A stretch of DNA of 64,000 nt from Christensenella timonensis (GTDB lineage: Bacteria > Bacillota > Clostridia > Christensenellales > Christensenellaceae), in assembly GCF_900087015.1 (NCBI RefSeq), contig NZ_FLKP01000001.1, positions 248,001-312,000 on the forward strand, written 5' to 3'. Within the stretch, counting starts at the first letter, position 1; every line of letters starts with the position of its first letter. Positions 21,748 through 50,172 of this stretch are shown in pieces. The notes under the pieces were generated by a model. It worked only from the letters and a program-made list of their open reading frames with translations, did not search any database and had not been told where the DNA came from. Position numbers and translations under genes: made by a program.

Positions 21748-23082
21748 TTATCGCTCCTGCTCCCGCGCCCTGCTTTGGGACGGGTAAAGAATACTATCGA
21801 CGTTCTTTTTGACAACGCCGTATTCCTGCATTTGCTTCTTGGCTTGCCGATAATCTTCATACAATTTGGTTTTCCTGTCGTTTAAGCTTCTATACTCCTT
21901 GCGCAGCGCGGCGAGATCGGGCAGCTTCTTTATCTGCATTTCCTTTAATGCCCTTGCCGCAGCTTCAAACAGGATAATTTCGCTTTCATGCCCCCGCAGA
22001 TACTTTTCCTTGTCCGGCGATTTTCGGTATTCATCGTAAATCGGTTTTAACTGTCGGTATGTGGTGGTGTGCTTGATAAGCAGCGACAAATCAGACATAC
22101 GCTGTTCCACTTCCTTAATCGCCTTTGCCGCCGCGTCATGAGCGGTCATAATATCGGCTATCTTGCTTTCAAGTTCGCTATAATACTCAATCTTGTTTTC
22201 GGTTAGGAAGTTCATGCTTTTAGCAGCCTGTTTCAGATTATGGATTTTTGCCCACCGTTCATAGCCCGCCGACTGTTGGGCTTTGATACTGTTTTCAAGA
22301 TCGACGACAAGCCGGATTTTCTTATCTTCCCGCAGCGTTTTTGTTTTGGCAACATACACGCCCTTGATACGCTCCTTTATCGCTTCTTCCGTATAGGCCG
22401 CGCCGAGCGTCTTTGTGCGGGTAAACCGTTCCTGTCCGGCAGCGCGAAAGGAAATGTATTTGCCCTGTTTGATTTCATACCCCATTTCCTGCAAGCGGCG
22501 CAGCAGTTCGTCAAAATCTTTCACTTGGGGAATGAGAGTATCTATCGCCGTTTTCAGCTTTGCTTTGTAGCTTGTCCCTTGCTTTTCGGCGGTGTATTCT
22601 GCATAGCTTTTTCCCTTGTCCTGTCCCGGTACGACGACGGATAGCCCATGCTCTTTACATATCCTGTCGCTGGTGCGCCGGATAAAGTGATAGCTTTGCT
22701 TGTTGGAATGGTACTTTTTGTAGTCAACGAAGCTAACCGCGTTGAAAATCAAGTGATTATGCAGATGGTCTTTATCGACGTGAGTTGTCAAAACAAACTC
22801 ATACTTGCCGCCTAATACCGCCCCGGCAAGTTCCATGCCGATTTTGTGCGCTTCTTCCGGTGTGGTTTCTCCCACCGCAAAGGATTGTATCAAGTGCCGC
22901 CCTAAATGTGTGCCGCGATCTCCGGCAGCTTCCCGCGTCCATGCAAACTCAATATCGGCGGTTTCCAGCCCGCAGCCGAAAGAGGACGCAAGCAGCTTCC
23001 CGTCTGTCTTTTCGGGATTTAAGATATAGTCTATCGCAGCCTTTAAGGTTGATTTAATAGGGTGCGTCTTTGTAACCGCCAT
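21748..23082 (-). CDS. MOBP-type relaxase
   Basis: This 444-aa relaxase nicks oriT and pilots the strand. A candidate nucleophile Tyr is in IDYILNPEK (Y19), and the metal-binding His triad is in HVDKDHLHNH (H101, H106/H108, H110). The C-terminal half is helical and probably contacts the coupling protein. It reads away from the candidate oriT at 23.4 kb, and its start overlaps mobC by 40 bases. No truncation is apparent, so the ICE should be able to process its own DNA. Confidence 0.92.
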   Translation of the reverse strand: MAVTKTHPIKSTLKAAIDYILNPEKTDGKLLASSFGCGLETADIEFAWTREAAGDRGTHLGRHLIQSFAVGETTPEEAHKIGMELAGAVLGGKYEFVLTTHVDKDHLHNHLIFNAVSFVDYKKYHSNKQSYHFIRRTSDRICKEHGLSVVVPGQDKGKSYAEYTAEKQGTSYKAKLKTAIDTLIPQVKDFDELLRRLQEMGYEIKQGKYISFRAAGQERFTRTKTLGAAYTEEAIKERIKGVYVAKTKTLREDKKIRLVVDLENSIKAQQSAGYERWAKIHNLKQAAKSMNFLTENKIEYYSELESKIADIMTAHDAAAKAIKEVEQRMSDLSLLIKHTTTYRQLKPIYDEYRKSPDKEKYLRGHESEIILFEAAARALKEMQIKKLPDLAALRKEYRSLNDRKTKLYEDYRQAKKQMQEYGVVKKNVDSILYPSQSRAREQER

Positions 23083-23372
23083 ATCTCGTCCACCGCCTTT
23101 TTAATGTCCTCTATATCCTGCCTGTAAACCGTCCCCGTCGCATTGGCGCGTTTTGCAATTTGGTTGATGTTCCGGCTCACCGCTTGCAGTTCCCGGATAT
23201 ATGCTTTTGTGTCGCTTCGGTCAACGACAAGAATATACCCGTCTATCGCCATTTTACGGAAGTATGCCCCATACTGCTTTATGGGAAGCTGCTTCATCTT
23301 CTCGTCGATCAGCCGCTTTTCTTCTTCCGTAACGTAAAACTTCATCTGTATATTTCTCTTTCGGTTTTCCAT
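23043..23372 (-). CDS. mobC: MobC-like relaxosome accessory protein
   Basis: This 109-aa protein has a ribbon-helix-helix-like N-terminus (about 8-50) and the MobC C-terminal stretch with LQAVSRNINQIAKRAN. It should bind oriT and help the relaxase melt and nick. It starts seven bases from the oriT-like element and overlaps the relaxase start. The ATG follows AAGGCGG. Confidence 0.88.
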   Translation of the reverse strand: MENRKRNIQMKFYVTEEEKRLIDEKMKQLPIKQYGAYFRKMAIDGYILVVDRSDTKAYIRELQAVSRNINQIAKRANATGTVYRQDIEDIKKAVDEIWRLQRRTLLNQP

Positions 23373-24152: not shown

Positions 24153-24258
24153 TCATGCTTATTTTGCGGATGCTATACAAAAAACTAACGACGTATAGAT
24201 ATAGTATAGACATAGTGCAAGCATGCCTTAGTTTTGTTGTACTGCTCTGTGCATTATA

Positions 24259-24529: not shown

Positions 24530-25513
24530 ATGAAACGTTTACCTAAATATACGCCTGCGGAAGTACGGAATGATCCATACGGATTTACTTACAAAGAAAT
24601 GTCGGAAGTTATTGGCGAGAATGAAGCAAAAGCCTTATATGAAGAATTATATAAGCAATTACCACGCAAAAAAAATCTATCAATGTTGGTAAAAAATATT
24701 TGCAAAAGCAGTGATACTGAAAAGTATGTTTACGAACTGAAAGACAACAAATACATTGAAACGGTTTTTATCAAGCGGCGAGATGGTGGAACTGTTTGCG
24801 TGAGCACACAAGTCGGTTGTCCTGTTGGTTGTATTTTTTGTGAGTCCGGGCGAAATGGCTTTGTTCGTAATCTAACATCGTCAGAAATCGTACAACAGAT
24901 TATATTGTTGCGTCGAAAAGTAAACCGTATCGTTTTTATGGGTATGGGAGAGCCTTTATTCAATTATGACAACTTGATAAAAGCAATCCATATTCTCCGA
25001 GATAGATATGGGCTCAACTTTCCAACCGACGGCATTACCATATCAACAGTTGGTCCGGTCGATCAATTAAAAAAATTGCGCGAGGAACATCTTAAAATTC
25101 AGTTGACAATATCTTTACACGCAGCAACACAATCTGCAAGAAATCGTATTATTCCTCACATGCGCATATATGCTATTGAAGATGTTGTTAAGCAAGCCTT
25201 ATCCTATTCTGAAAGGCATAATCGCAAAATTGTCTTTGCGTATTTGCTTTTACCGGGTATAAATGACCGGCCCTCAGATGTAAGACAACTTGCAAAATGG
25301 TTTCGGGGCAAAAAAGTTATGATTAACGTGTTACAATACAACCCAACAAGCAATTCAAGAATTAAAGCACCACAGAAACGGGAAATAGTTGCATTCAAAC
25401 ATCAATTAGAGCAAGCAGGACTTGAAGTTACTATGAGAGTTTCTCATGGCAGAGAGATTAACGCGGCTTGTGGACAGTTAGCTAACACATATAATAAATT
25501 CAAAAAAAAATGA
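24530..25513 (+). CDS. Cfr/RlmN-family radical SAM 23S rRNA methyltransferase
   Basis: This 327-aa enzyme has the radical-SAM cluster CPVGCIFC (C97, C101, C104), the motif GMGEP (about 142-146), TISLHAAT, and the methyl-carrying Cys in AACGQL (C314), all shared by RlmN and Cfr. These enzymes methylate A2503 of 23S rRNA at C2 (RlmN) or C8 (Cfr, giving multidrug resistance). GMGEPL is RlmN-like, while the ICE location, AT-rich codons and attenuated leader are Cfr-like. RlmN is a chromosomal housekeeping gene, so a mobile, inducible copy suggests resistance. I cannot decide C2 versus C8 from sequence. Start after AAAGGAT. Confidence 0.85.
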   Translation: MKRLPKYTPAEVRNDPYGFTYKEMSEVIGENEAKALYEELYKQLPRKKNLSMLVKNICKSSDTEKYVYELKDNKYIETVFIKRRDGGTVCVSTQVGCPVGCIFCESGRNGFVRNLTSSEIVQQIILLRRKVNRIVFMGMGEPLFNYDNLIKAIHILRDRYGLNFPTDGITISTVGPVDQLKKLREEHLKIQLTISLHAATQSARNRIIPHMRIYAIEDVVKQALSYSERHNRKIVFAYLLLPGINDRPSDVRQLAKWFRGKKVMINVLQYNPTSNSRIKAPQKREIVAFKHQLEQAGLEVTMRVSHGREINAACGQLANTYNKFKKK

Positions 25514-45369: not shown

Positions 45370-46341
45370 CTACAGGTTTTCCGACATGATCAAAAATTCT
45401 TCGTACATGTCTTTTTTAAACACCAGCTCTTTTGCCAGTGCCTCGTCGATATCCTCGTCGATCGTCTTGTTGTCGTGGATACCCACCACCCGGTTGCCGA
45501 TCCCCTTGGAAAGGAGCTGGACTGCGCGCACGCCCATTTGCGTCGCACGGATACGGTCCGCCGCACTCGGCGTGCCGCCGCGCTGCGTATATCCGAGTAC
45601 GATCGCCTTGGCGTCGAGGTTCGCTTTTGCACGCATATAGTTTGCAACCGCCTCGCCCTTGCCCGCGCCTTCCGCAATCAGCACGATGCTCGTCATCTTG
45701 CCTTTGATACGGTCGCTCATGATCTTCTCGCAGATATGGTCGATATCAAATTCCACTTCCGGAATGATGATATGCTCCGCGCCGCCCGCAATGCCCGCGT
45801 AAAGCGCGATATCGCCGCATTTGTTGCCCATGACCTCGATCACGCCCACGCGTTCGTGGGAATTCATCGTGTCGCGGATCTTGGACATCTCGCTCGTTAC
45901 GCCGTTGACCGCCGTATCGAACCCGATCGTGAAGTCCGTATACGCAAGGTCGTTGTCGATCGTCCCCGGGATACCGATCGTCGGCACACCCAGGTGCGAA
46001 AGCACCTTTGCTCCCTGGAACGAACCGTCGCCGCCGATCACGACCACGCCCGAGATATCGAATGCCTTGATGACCTTCAGGGCCTTTTGCTGGCCCTCCG
46101 GCGTTTTGAACTCTTCGCAGCGCGCCGTCTTTAAGATCGTGCCGCCTTCTTCGACGATGCCGTCCACATCTTCCGTCTTGATACGCTCAACGCGTCCCTC
46201 GATCATACCGGCATATCCTTTTTTGATGCCCATGACCGAGAATCCCGCAGCATCCGCCGCCATGACCACGCTGCGGATCCCAGCGTTCATGCCCGGCGTA
46301 TCTCCCCCGCTTGTCAAAATACCAATTCTCTTTTTCATCAC
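45370..46341 (-). CDS. pfkA: 6-phosphofructokinase
   Basis: This 323-aa enzyme makes fructose-1,6-bisphosphate from fructose-6-phosphate and ATP. It has GGDTPGMNAGIR (about 12-23), GGDGSFQGA and the catalytic PGTIDNDL(A)YTDFTIGFDTA. Length and motifs are those of bacterial ATP-dependent PfkA. It follows mtrB by 27 bases and dnaE upstream, a dnaE-pfkA neighbourhood common in Firmicutes. Confidence 0.95.
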   Translation of the reverse strand: MMKKRIGILTSGGDTPGMNAGIRSVVMAADAAGFSVMGIKKGYAGMIEGRVERIKTEDVDGIVEEGGTILKTARCEEFKTPEGQQKALKVIKAFDISGVVVIGGDGSFQGAKVLSHLGVPTIGIPGTIDNDLAYTDFTIGFDTAVNGVTSEMSKIRDTMNSHERVGVIEVMGNKCGDIALYAGIAGGAEHIIIPEVEFDIDHICEKIMSDRIKGKMTSIVLIAEGAGKGEAVANYMRAKANLDAKAIVLGYTQRGGTPSAADRIRATQMGVRAVQLLSKGIGNRVVGIHDNKTIDEDIDEALAKELVFKKDMYEEFLIMSENL

Positions 46342-46368: not shown

Positions 46369-46608
46369 TTAAACTTCTTCGTCGCCTGAAAAAACCTCGC
46401 CGTGTTTGGTTAGGATTTGTGCACGGCCGGAAATCTTGATCGCAGAGATATTGTCAGTAAACTGGGCGAGAAGCACATCGCCCGAAGTGAGCTTTTCCGT
46501 ATGCTGCAGCCTTGTATCTTTGCCGCGCGTCATACCGATCACGTTGACGCCATTTTCAAGCGCCTTTATGACCACATATTCTTCTGTGTTTTTATCGTTT
46601 GATTCCAC
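46369..46608 (-). CDS. mtrB: TRAP, tryptophan-sensing RNA-binding attenuation protein
   Basis: This 79-aa protein aligns through its length with Bacillus TRAP (VVIKALENGVNVIGMTRGKDT...EKLTSGDVLLAQFTDNISAIK). Trp-pocket residues corresponding to Thr25, Thr30, Gln47 and Thr49 are kept (here T27, T32, Q49, T51). RNA contacts Lys37 and Lys56 are kept (K39, K58), but Arg58 is Ser here (S60). It should form an 11-mer ring binding (G/U)AG repeats. It sits between dnaE and pfkA rather than beside folE. Start after AGGAGAAGAC. Confidence 0.92.
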   Translation of the reverse strand: MESNDKNTEEYVVIKALENGVNVIGMTRGKDTRLQHTEKLTSGDVLLAQFTDNISAIKISGRAQILTKHGEVFSGDEEV

Positions 46609-46722
46609 GCCCTGTCTTCTCCTTCAGCATTCACGTTACCAAACCACAATACAGCTAATATTCTATCAAAAGCCGTCTTAAAATACAATAACATTTGTGA
46701 AATTGCCTAATTTCCCCCGCCG

Positions 46723-49700
46723 CTATTTTACCACGACGTTCTCTTTTCCGAGGTATTCTACCAGCTCGCTTAACAGTTCCGCACGGTAAGCGACACTGCG
46801 CCCCCCTGTCAGCTTGTATTTCTGCCCTGTCTTTTCCACATATACGACGACACTGCTGCCGCCGGGATAACGCGATGTGATGCGTATCAGCCCATCCACA
46901 TCGCACGGCATATCCTGCGCGATTTTCACATACATCTGTTTCCCTGCAAAAAACGCATCGTCCGGTACGAACACGCCCACTTTTTCCGCCAGCAGCTCGA
47001 TCCCGCTCTGCGCCGTCACTGTGATCTTCCCGCCGACCACCACGATACTGTCGTTGTGGATCAGCGCCTCCGCTTCTGAAAACACATTCGGGAAAGCAAT
47101 CACATTGATCTGCGCGTACAAATCTTCCAGCACAAAATTCGCCATCATCTTTTTCTGCTTGGTAGGACGGATACGCGCAGAGGTAATGATGCCCAGAAGC
47201 TCCACCTGCTTCCCGTCGTATTCATACATGGTCATCTCGTCGCTTTCCGTCTGCATGATGTCGCCGATATTGACCGGCCGTGCTTCCAGCGCCCCCGCTA
47301 CCTCATCCAACGGATGCCCGCTGATATAAAGGCCCGTCATTTCCTTTTCATACGAAAGCTTTTGCGTTTCATCAAACTCCGGGATGTCCGGCAGCGCGAT
47401 ACCGAGCGCCTCAAATTCGCCCTGTGCACTGTCAAAAAGCGACATCTGCCCGCTGGCCTGCCTCTTCTTTAGCTGTACCGCGTCCGCGAGCACCTGCTCA
47501 TATACCGCCGCAAGCTGCGAACGCTTATCGCCAAAGCAGTCGAAGCAGCCCGAGAGGATCAGGCTTTCCAGCCTCTTTTTGTTGAGTACGTCCGCATTTT
47601 TATCGACAAAGTCCTCAAAGCTTTTATATCCGACGCCGCGCCGCGTGATCACTTCTTCGATCGCCTCGCCCACATAGGTGATGGCTGAAAGACCAAAGCG
47701 CACGCCGCCTTCTTCCGTCGTAAAACGCATATCCGAACGGTTGATGTCCGGCGGCAGGATCGCGATGCCCGCATGCTTTAAGGACTGAATATATTCCGCA
47801 AGCTTTTGCTTGCTCGTGATAAAGCTGTTGAGCAGCGCGGTCATAAATTCGACCGGGTAATAACACTTCAAATATGCCGTCTGGTAGGCGACCACCGCAT
47901 ACGCACACGCGTGCGATTTGTTGAACGCATAGTTGGCAAACGCCATCATCTGGTCGAAAAGCGCTGTCGCCGTTTTTTCGTCCATGCCGCGGCGCACCGC
48001 GCCTTCAACGGTCACTTCCCCGTCCTTTTCTTCCCCATAAATAAAGATCCTGCGCTCTTCTTCCAGCACATCCTGTTGTTTCTTGCTCATGGCGCGGCGC
48101 ACAAGGTCGCTCCTGGCCATGGAATAGCCCGCCACGTCGCGGACGATGCGCATGATCTGTTCCTGGTACACCATACAGCCGTATGTATCGCTTAGGATCG
48201 GCTCCAACATGGGGTGCGCGTAATGCACGTTTTTGTGGTCGTTCTTGCTGCGGATATATTCCGGGATGCTCTCCATCGGGCCCGGCCGGAACAGCGATAT
48301 CCCGACCATGATCTCGTTTAAGTCGGATGGTTTCAAGTCCTGCATCAGCCGGCGCATGCCGCCGCTTTCAAGCTGGAACATCCCGTCCGTTTCCCCTGCC
48401 GAAATCAGCTCGTATACCCTTTGATCCTTTAGGTCGATATTGTCGATGTCAATATCGACCCCGTGGTTTTTCTTGATCATGGCCAGTGCGTCACGGATGA
48501 CCGTCAGCGTCCTAAGCCCTAAAAAGTCCATCTTCAGCAGGCCGAGGCTTTCCAGCTTCTTCATCGTGTACTGCGTCATCACGCTCTCGTCCTTGGGGTT
48601 CTTTTGCAGCGGGACATAGTCCGTGATGGGCGCGTCCGCGATCACCACGCCCGCCGCGTGTGTGGATGCATGCCGCGGCATGCCCTCCAGCTTGCGCGCC
48701 ACGTCGATGACTTGCTTTGCCTCCGGGTTGTTTTGGTATTCCGCCTGCAGCTTGGGATTGCGCTCCATCGCTTTATCGATGGTCATTTTCAGTTCAAAGG
48801 GAACCATTTTCGCGATCTTGTCCGCGTCGGCAATGCTCATGCGCATCACGCGCGCCACATCGCGGATCACCAGCCGCGCGCCCATCGTGCCAAAAGTGAT
48901 GATCTGCGCGACCCTGTCCTGTCCATATTTTTGCGTAACGTAATCGATGACTTCCTGCCGCCGTTCATAACAGAAGTCGATATCGATATCCGGCATGCTG
49001 ATACGCTCCGGATTCAAAAAGCGCTCAAACAGCAGGTTGTATTCGATGGGATCGATATTCGTGATCCCCAGCGTGTACGCGATGATGCTGCCCGCCGCAC
49101 TGCCGCGTCCGGGGCCCACCATGATGCCGTTCGTTTTGGCAAAATTCACAAAGTCCCATACGATCAAAAAATAGTCCGTGAACCCCATGTCATGGATCGT
49201 ATTCAGCTCGTAATCAAACCGCTCCCTGATTTCGGGCGTGATGTGCGCATAATGCTTCTCAAGGCCCTCTTCGCCCAAATGCTTCAGGTATTCAAAATTC
49301 GTATAGCCCTCCGGCACATTGAATTCCGGCAGGTGGTTGCTGCCGAATTCAAATTCCAGGTTGCATTTTTCCGCGACCTCACGCGTATTGATGATCGCAT
49401 CCGGCACGTTGGAAAACAGTTGGAACATCTCCTTGGGGGACTTCAAATAGAATTCCTGCCCCTCAAAGGCCATCTTGCTGGGCGCGTCTATCGTCGTGAC
49501 CGTCTGGATGCACATCAACACCTGCTGGGCATACGCGTCCTCTTTGTCTACATAATGCACGTCGTTGGTCGCTACGAGCTTGATACCCGTTTCGTCCGCC
49601 AGCTTTAAGATCATCGGGTTGATACGCCGCTGCGCCTCGATCCCGTGATCCTGTATTTCCAGGTAAAAGTCTTCGCCGAACATCCCGCGCAGCGTTTCCG

Positions 49701-50172
49701 CCATCTTTTTTGCGCCCTTGTAGTCGTTTTGCGAGAGCAGGCGCTGCACATCTCCCGCGAGGCAGGCTGCAAGGCACACGAGCCCCTCCGTATGCTTTGC
49801 GAGCAGGTCATAATCGATGCGGGGCTTATAGTAAAATCCTTCCAGCGAACCCGCCGAAACGAGCTTCATCAGGTTTTTATATCCCGTCATATCCTTACAC
49901 AGCAAAACGAGGTGCGCGTATTCCTTGGTAACGGCATTCTTTTCAAACCTGCTCCCCTGCGCGACATAGACCTCGCAGCCGATGATCGGTTTGATGCCCG
50001 CTTTTTTCGCAGCCGTATAAAAATCGAGTACGCCGTACATCACGCCATGGTCTGTAATGGCGAGCGCGTCCATCTTCATTTCCTTTGCGCGCGCGACCAG
50101 GTCGCCTAAGCGGCCGGCGCCGTCCAGTAGGCTGTATTCCGTATGAACATGCAAATGTGTAAAATCAACCAT
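46723..50172 (-). CDS. dnaE: DNA polymerase III alpha subunit
   Basis: This 1149-aa replicative polymerase has the N-terminal PHP domain (HLHVHTEYSLLDGAGRL), the active-site PDIDIDFCYERR, the HhH region and a C-terminal OB-fold (from about 970). Length and motifs fit DnaE1/DnaE3-type Firmicutes enzymes. The - strand upstream region holds a TATACT-like -10 and an inverted ATGGG/CCCAT, shared with the divergent HAD gene region. Confidence 0.95.
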   Translation of the reverse strand: MVDFTHLHVHTEYSLLDGAGRLGDLVARAKEMKMDALAITDHGVMYGVLDFYTAAKKAGIKPIIGCEVYVAQGSRFEKNAVTKEYAHLVLLCKDMTGYKNLMKLVSAGSLEGFYYKPRIDYDLLAKHTEGLVCLAACLAGDVQRLLSQNDYKGAKKMAETLRGMFGEDFYLEIQDHGIEAQRRINPMILKLADETGIKLVATNDVHYVDKEDAYAQQVLMCIQTVTTIDAPSKMAFEGQEFYLKSPKEMFQLFSNVPDAIINTREVAEKCNLEFEFGSNHLPEFNVPEGYTNFEYLKHLGEEGLEKHYAHITPEIRERFDYELNTIHDMGFTDYFLIVWDFVNFAKTNGIMVGPGRGSAAGSIIAYTLGITNIDPIEYNLLFERFLNPERISMPDIDIDFCYERRQEVIDYVTQKYGQDRVAQIITFGTMGARLVIRDVARVMRMSIADADKIAKMVPFELKMTIDKAMERNPKLQAEYQNNPEAKQVIDVARKLEGMPRHASTHAAGVVIADAPITDYVPLQKNPKDESVMTQYTMKKLESLGLLKMDFLGLRTLTVIRDALAMIKKNHGVDIDIDNIDLKDQRVYELISAGETDGMFQLESGGMRRLMQDLKPSDLNEIMVGISLFRPGPMESIPEYIRSKNDHKNVHYAHPMLEPILSDTYGCMVYQEQIMRIVRDVAGYSMARSDLVRRAMSKKQQDVLEEERRIFIYGEEKDGEVTVEGAVRRGMDEKTATALFDQMMAFANYAFNKSHACAYAVVAYQTAYLKCYYPVEFMTALLNSFITSKQKLAEYIQSLKHAGIAILPPDINRSDMRFTTEEGGVRFGLSAITYVGEAIEEVITRRGVGYKSFEDFVDKNADVLNKKRLESLILSGCFDCFGDKRSQLAAVYEQVLADAVQLKKRQASGQMSLFDSAQGEFEALGIALPDIPEFDETQKLSYEKEMTGLYISGHPLDEVAGALEARPVNIGDIMQTESDEMTMYEYDGKQVELLGIITSARIRPTKQKKMMANFVLEDLYAQINVIAFPNVFSEAEALIHNDSIVVVGGKITVTAQSGIELLAEKVGVFVPDDAFFAGKQMYVKIAQDMPCDVDGLIRITSRYPGGSSVVVYVEKTGQKYKLTGGRSVAYRAELLSELVEYLGKENVVVK

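Follow-up and report, generated by a model that had tools for sequence, protein, structure and literature searches.

What does a tryptophan-responsive RNA-binding protein control in a bacterium in whose genome no trpE is found? The question is raised by a 64,000-nucleotide stretch of the Christensenella timonensis genome (contig NZ_FLKP01000001.1, positions 248,001 to 312,000; hereafter the window), which carries an mtrB gene, encoding the trp RNA-binding attenuation protein (TRAP), at 46369..46608 on the minus strand. The gene was placed by open reading frame (ORF) call, Pfam and NCBIfam profile matches and alignment. It encodes 79 amino acids, from a GTG start codon (46606-46608, minus strand) to a stop codon at 46369-46371 (minus strand), and a likely Shine-Dalgarno sequence, AAGGAGA, was read by eye 9 nucleotides (nt) 5' of the GTG (46618..46624, minus strand). 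The product belongs to the TRAP family, in agreement with the original prediction made from the letters of the window. It scores 116.4 bits against Pfam TrpBP PF02081 (gathering score 21.3 bits) and 116.7 bits against NCBIfam NF009724, 0.3 bits under the cut-off of 117, over 72 of the 76 profile positions. Similar solved structures include 1c9s (E 1.5e-23) and the tandem construct 9bds (E 8.4e-43), and all 15 solved-structure sequences matched at an E of at most 0.001 carry the name TRAP or MtrB.

We favour, with a probability of roughly 60%, the reading that TRAP has been kept after loss of the trp operon and now represses an arylacetate (indoleacetate)-CoA ligase that would serve tryptophan salvage through an indolepyruvate ferredoxin oxidoreductase (IOR) working in reverse.

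A NAG tract at the arylacetate-CoA-ligase-like gene

Between iorB and the ligase gene of C. timonensis (genome G000 of our sample) lie seven NAG triplets with spacers of 2-3 nt (C2:674384), which extend from the iorB stop codon, over an AGGAG, to 2 nt before the ligase ATG. The orthologous ligase gene of G002, a congener that also has TRAP, carries eight such triplets (C1:2559406), and the triplet rhythm is kept between the two species despite a length difference caused by indels. Tracts were measured with a chain scorer that looks for successive NAG triplets separated by 2-3 nt, whose weights and gap rules are our own and were made with the TRAP motif known beforehand; the ligase tract scores 6.3 in both genomes. 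The best chain scores in the two congeners that have the ligase and lack TRAP are 3.0 (G003) and 2.6 (G004), and the tract segment is absent from their part of the alignment. The best chain in other G000 sequence scored 4.6 (928,000 nt, comprising the window and 20 further stretches on both strands, or about 19% of the genome), and no chain reached 5 in 2.0 Mb of simulated sequence. The predicted centroid structure leaves the ligase tract unpaired. Orthologous ligases (at least 59% identity) occur in 7 of the 61 genomes sampled from the order, and the tract is also lacking at the orthologues in G030 and G040, neither of which has TRAP.

The genome search returned no trpE match in either TRAP-bearing congener, G000 or G002, compared with a match in all four congeners without TRAP, three of which have a T-box above the gathering score before trpE. 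Since no trpE was found, G000 offers no leader of that gene for a tract to occupy. A search for tracts near tryptophan genes, which the original prediction had proposed and which was run in part, gave no trpE match in the genome and a tract on the ligase-like gene, together with a weak tract on trpB; the repeat target in a gene with a putative link to tryptophan is the seven-triplet ligase tract. In G000 and G002 trpB2 and trpB stand in tandem (the families were named by profile for G000) behind a T-box, RF00230, which scores 93.9 bits at L104 and 99.7 bits at L105 against a gathering score of 93, and whose specifier was read by eye from the alignments as UGG. A TRAP site before trpB2 in G000 was rejected, as the T-box occupies that place and there is only the weak tract at trpB. 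The latter covers the trpB start in both genomes with a score of 3.0, to be read against 36 chains scoring at least 2.9 in the same 928,000 nt of background. TrpX was likewise rejected as a TRAP target in G000, where no homologue was found at E 1e-30.

The ligase gene encodes a PaaK-like protein of 411 amino acids and lies behind iorA-iorB in both G000 and G002; IorA scores 771 bits against TIGR03336 (cut-off 650.9). According to the available text of PMC13285125, an AMP-forming ligase beside an IOR in Bacteroides was assayed as an arylacetate-CoA ligase with a proposed biosynthetic role, and the IOR of a methanogen was proposed to run in reverse. As the Bacteroides ligase has been assayed and a biosynthetic direction proposed, we infer that the cassette would convert indoleacetate to tryptophan when tryptophan is short. 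Repression by tryptophan fits an enzyme that makes tryptophan. The Bacteroides arrangement is alike in that iorAB adjoins a PaaK-like ligase; it differs from that of C. timonensis, in which iorB is followed by a NAG tract and then the ligase gene, and the text examined of PMC13285125 draws no link to TRAP in its account of the Bacteroides and methanogen IOR.

The favoured reading implies the following sequence of events. At high tryptophan, TRAP, a putative 11-subunit ring, would bind tryptophan and settle on the seven or eight NAG triplets that cover the Shine-Dalgarno sequence up to the ligase AUG, so that ribosome binding and hence translation would be blocked, in the manner of B. subtilis TRAP on trpG and trpP. 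At low tryptophan, the ligase would be made and would activate indoleacetate to its CoA ester; the putative indoleacetyl-CoA would be carboxylated to indolepyruvate by IOR in reverse, and transamination would yield tryptophan. Indole salvage by trpB2-trpB would be controlled by the tryptophan (UGG) T-box, perhaps with the weaker TRAP site on trpB in addition.

The RNA-contact surface and tracts in related genomes

Residues were compared in a table of 94 rows, drawn from 14 genomes of the order and 80 named loci, and comprising 91 distinct cores: three row pairs share a core, two of them also a contig (G038 = L153, G023 = L155), and the identical TRAPs of G024 and G053 form a single entry. The named loci are the best 80 of at least 573 relatives found by an alignment-based contig search, compared with zero found with a single TRAP protein. 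In the numbering of the window protein, S60 occupies the position of Arg58 of Bacillus subtilis TRAP, T41 that of Asp39 and D44 that of Glu42. Position 58 is Arg in 80 of the 91 distinct TRAPs and another residue in 11 (N 6, S 2, K 2, H 1), and Ser is found only in G000 and G002; Thr at 39 and Asp at 42 are each likewise confined to these two among the 94 rows. Glu36, Lys37, Lys56 and His34 are retained in the alignment, and the Phe32 position is Leu in the G000/G002 pair, as in 12 of the 91 distinct TRAPs. In the solved TRAP-RNA complex, as given in the available text of PMC4854314, Glu36 contacts G3 and Asp39 contacts G1, Phe32 is stacked on G3 and Lys37 on G1, and Glu42 and Arg58 form a salt bridge. 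The G000 and G002 proteins thus lack the residue of the customary first-base contact and differ at both ends of the bridge.

The original prediction was borne out in its retained Lys37 and Lys56 equivalents and in the Ser at the Arg58 position; its statement that one RNA-contact residue is changed held for that Ser and fell short in that the Asp39 and Glu42 positions differ too. Tryptophan-pocket residues had been described as kept. Of the pocket-adjacent positions, which we take to be 25, 26, 27, 29, 30, 33, 47, 49, 51, 52 and 53, eight (25, 26, 27, 29, 30, 47, 49 and 53) have the common letter in the window protein; 51 is Asn, a common residue (34 of 94 rows), 33 is Gln and 52 is Ile (3 of 94 rows). 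None of the terms sought for the tryptophan pocket occurs in PMC3184956. The further suggestion of weaker function does not follow from the Ser: strong NAG tracts occur in genomes with His or Lys at position 58 (G023, G035, G042), so loss of Arg58 need not equal loss of function. As Arg58 is absent in 11 of the 91 proteins, some of them from genomes with strong tracts, we do not treat it as defining for TRAP. As to the variant RNA that the original prediction suggested, the tract at the ligase is still built of NAG triplets.

TRAP is present in 15 of the 61 genomes of the order, C. timonensis included. A trpE match was found in 5 of these 15, compared with 8 of the 46 genomes without TRAP (some of the genomes are incomplete), which indicates that TRAP often outlives trpE in the order. 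The chain scorer detects long NAG tracts before trpE in G021, G035 and G038. It also detects tracts over 4.5 near the start of trpB2 in six TRAP genomes, namely G023, G024, G038, G042, G049 and G053 (loci L050, L051, L053, L054, L058 and L060). The product of trpB2, a paralogue of TrpB, may function in indole salvage. Eleven of the 15 TRAP genomes have a chain of at least 4.5 at trpE, trpB2, trpX or the ligase gene; counted by rows, these are 12 of 39 in TRAP genomes versus 0 of 17 in genomes without TRAP, with a line of 4.5 that was set after the scores had been seen, rows that are not independent and some sites that also served to build the motif model. The row count excludes the weak TrpB-like loci L056, L067 and L068 and matches without a locus, including trpB2 of G001, and the ligase paralogues (about 40-44% identity) are represented by six scored loci. 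The scored stretch was oriented positions 1001-1560, which is misplaced where the upstream flank is cut (e.g., L046, L052, L059, L066, L122, L135 and L252). Short tracts seen by eye below the line at L059 (4.3), L255 (3.2) and L055 (3.0) were not counted. A broader proposal, which we advance more tentatively than the favoured reading, is that TRAP has been re-aimed, gating with an altered RNA surface the reverse-IOR route from indoleacetate to tryptophan, and that throughout the order it has repeatedly outlived trpE by way of trpB2, trpX or the ligase.

At L253 (G018, oriented 1266-1298) a NAG tract stands before a trpX-like gene and is followed by a hairpin and a T run, on this by-eye reading likely a TRAP attenuator on a tryptophan transporter gene. 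The trpX-like gene of G051 (L080/L101, C3 near 90580; NF041285, 252 bits, cut-off 390) has a T-box followed by a short NAG tract, which would place two tryptophan-sensing devices in a single leader. At about 1492-1551 of L084 (G023:C84) a NAG tract of great length, by eye some 13 triplets, precedes a gene for a membrane protein of 478 amino acids, which is weakly NhaC-like (52.5 bits, under the cut-off) and is perhaps an unrecognised tryptophan transporter. In G018 a tract covers the start of an amidohydrolase-like gene (L076/L102, C3 near 121343) that scores 374 bits against the Xaa-Pro dipeptidase model NF051886 (cut-off 500). A match to the cyclic di-GMP-II riboswitch, at 57.4 bits against a gathering score of 53.5, lies at 3243-3326 of L030 on the plus strand, upstream of and on the opposite strand to trpE of G038.

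Weighing the alternatives

Several findings weigh against the favoured reading. The ligase tract is found in only two related species, its co-occurrence with TRAP amounting to two congeners versus two, and no tract stands at the orthologous ligase of G034, a genome with TRAP; more broadly, 4 of the 15 TRAP genomes (G032, G034, G039 and G051) are without a tract over 4.5 at the scored genes. In a covariance-model search of 19 genomes, which scored 150 of the 398 first-look candidates (a coverage that we also count against the reading), the ligase site of G000 came third among the matches of that genome, at E 1.06, after two matches in coding frames, and the G002 site, the single listed match in G002, had E 3.36. 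A five-triplet pattern recovered the ligase site of G002 but not that of G000, which contains a CAG triplet and 3-nt spacers, and the pattern totals lie below those of a backward-pattern control (4 vs 10 in G000, 2 vs 10 in G002). Leader folding is neither stronger nor weaker than that of shuffled sequences (z -0.16). The tract has 7-8 triplets, fewer than the usual 9-11 given in the available text of PMC4347634, where a single repeat over the ribosome-binding site is said to suffice in B. subtilis. The IorB-like protein scores 173.4 bits against a TIGR03334 cut-off of 205.8, and the ligase 384.6 bits against the 646.3 of the PaaK equivalog TIGR02155, for which it is termed PaaK-like only; as both fall under their cut-offs, the ligase substrate is a guess. 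Finally, Asp39, Glu42 and Arg58 are all substituted in the window protein.

The position of the ligase below the PaaK cut-off leaves room for an alternative that we consider unlikely, namely that TRAP represses the ligase while iorAB and the ligase serve general arylacetate metabolism (phenylacetate, hydroxyphenylacetate) or tryptophan breakdown. A tryptophan-sensing repressor on a catabolic enzyme would have the wrong sign, AMP-forming ligases typically favour acyl-CoA synthesis (available text of PMC13285125), and no trpE was found in G000. The altered residues could instead mean that TRAP, its RNA surface damaged (R58S, E42D, D39T), is a relic and that the tract is a leftover or due to chance. 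This is less probable again: the letters at the three RNA-side positions are indeed unique to G000 and G002 among the 94 rows, and TRAP occurs in just 2 of 18 genomes of the family (both Christensenella, G000 and G002), but the gene is open in two species whose TRAPs are 89% identical, Glu36, Lys37, His34 and Lys56 are kept, the triplet rhythm survives indels, and G003 and G004, with the ligase and without TRAP, have no tract.

It is very improbable, in our judgement, that the main target in G000 is another RNA, such as that of a tryptophan transporter or trpB, and that the ligase tract is minor. The chain scan covered about 19% of the genome and the model search 150 of 398 candidates, the weak tract on trpB is conserved, relatives have tracts at trpX or at the NhaC-like gene, and an AAG-only run at C2:818928 directly precedes an in-frame ATG that is a possible true start. 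Against these stand the failure to find a TrpX homologue in G000 at E 1e-30 and the location of the remaining matches: the other model and pattern matches examined in G000 and G002, a set without G000:C2:1825476 and one further single hit, were rejected as lying inside mechanically called ORFs, although one of these matches immediately precedes an internal ATG. The run at C2:818928 (L141) consists of five AAG triplets, the ATG after it being that of a possible membrane protein; it may be chance or may be a weak TRAP site.

Gene neighbourhood, known systems and implications

The TRAP gene lies on the same strand as its neighbours, both assigned by ORF call and profile matches: dnaE (46723..50172, minus strand) ends 114 nt before the TRAP start, and pfkA (45370..46341, minus strand) begins, at its mechanical ORF start, 27 nt past the TRAP stop. 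TRAP and pfkA are possibly co-transcribed. The original prediction was right about this placement and set it against the place beside folE best known from Bacillus; the comparison shows nothing special in it. Among the order's 15 TRAP genomes, 7 have both neighbours, 3 dnaE alone and 5 pfkA alone (in two of these five TRAP is at a contig end). Of the best 80 named loci, 24 have both neighbours, 24 dnaE alone and 7 pfkA alone, compared with a folE-like gene immediately upstream in 7; 18 have neither dnaE, pfkA nor a folE-like gene within the set distances, some being on short contigs. With dnaE and/or pfkA beside TRAP in 15 of 15 genomes and 55 of 80 loci, an unusual gene location was rejected, and the dnaE-TRAP-pfkA placement is ordinary for Clostridia. 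The four TRAP-less congeners keep dnaE and pfkA adjacent, and tblastn finds no TRAP between them, which looks like clean loss of the gene.

Elsewhere in the window, a five-triplet NAG-like run (24196-24221, plus strand, score 4.6) is followed after about 310 bases by an ORF (at 24530) which, to the eye, looks like an RlmN/Cfr-type radical SAM methyltransferase. Relaxase-like and MobC-like ORFs, also recognised by eye (21748-23372, minus strand), perhaps belong to a mobile element.

C. timonensis shares with B. subtilis the TRAP (MtrB) protein family and a NAG tract over the ribosome-binding site (available text of PMC4347634, whose reference titles name trpG and trpP as B. subtilis targets). 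It differs in that no trpE was found, the TRAP gene lies beside dnaE and pfkA and not beside folE, Asp39, Glu42 and Arg58 are substituted, and the candidate target is the arylacetate-CoA-ligase-like gene. With known tryptophan T-box leaders (RF00230) it shares the UGG T-box before trpB2-trpB; in C. timonensis, however, the T-box coexists with TRAP, on an operon other than that with the strong NAG tract. The available text of PMC2494555 mentions TRAP and tryptophan T-boxes and contains nothing on a ligase target. Literature searches found no text joining the RNA-binding attenuation protein with indolepyruvate, which is weak evidence as subscription journals are largely uncovered, and, within similarly limited coverage, no title on such a target among the papers listed for TRAP with Clostridia, trpB2, auxotrophy, salvage or comparative genomics and for Christensenella with tryptophan.

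If the favoured reading is true, the known range of TRAP targets would come to include tryptophan salvage from indoleacetate, which is known to occur in the gut, and the altered protein would be a natural experiment on the RNA contacts that TRAP can do without. The reading would also predict a source of tryptophan for a human gut bacterium, and congeners with and without TRAP make the hypothesis directly testable.
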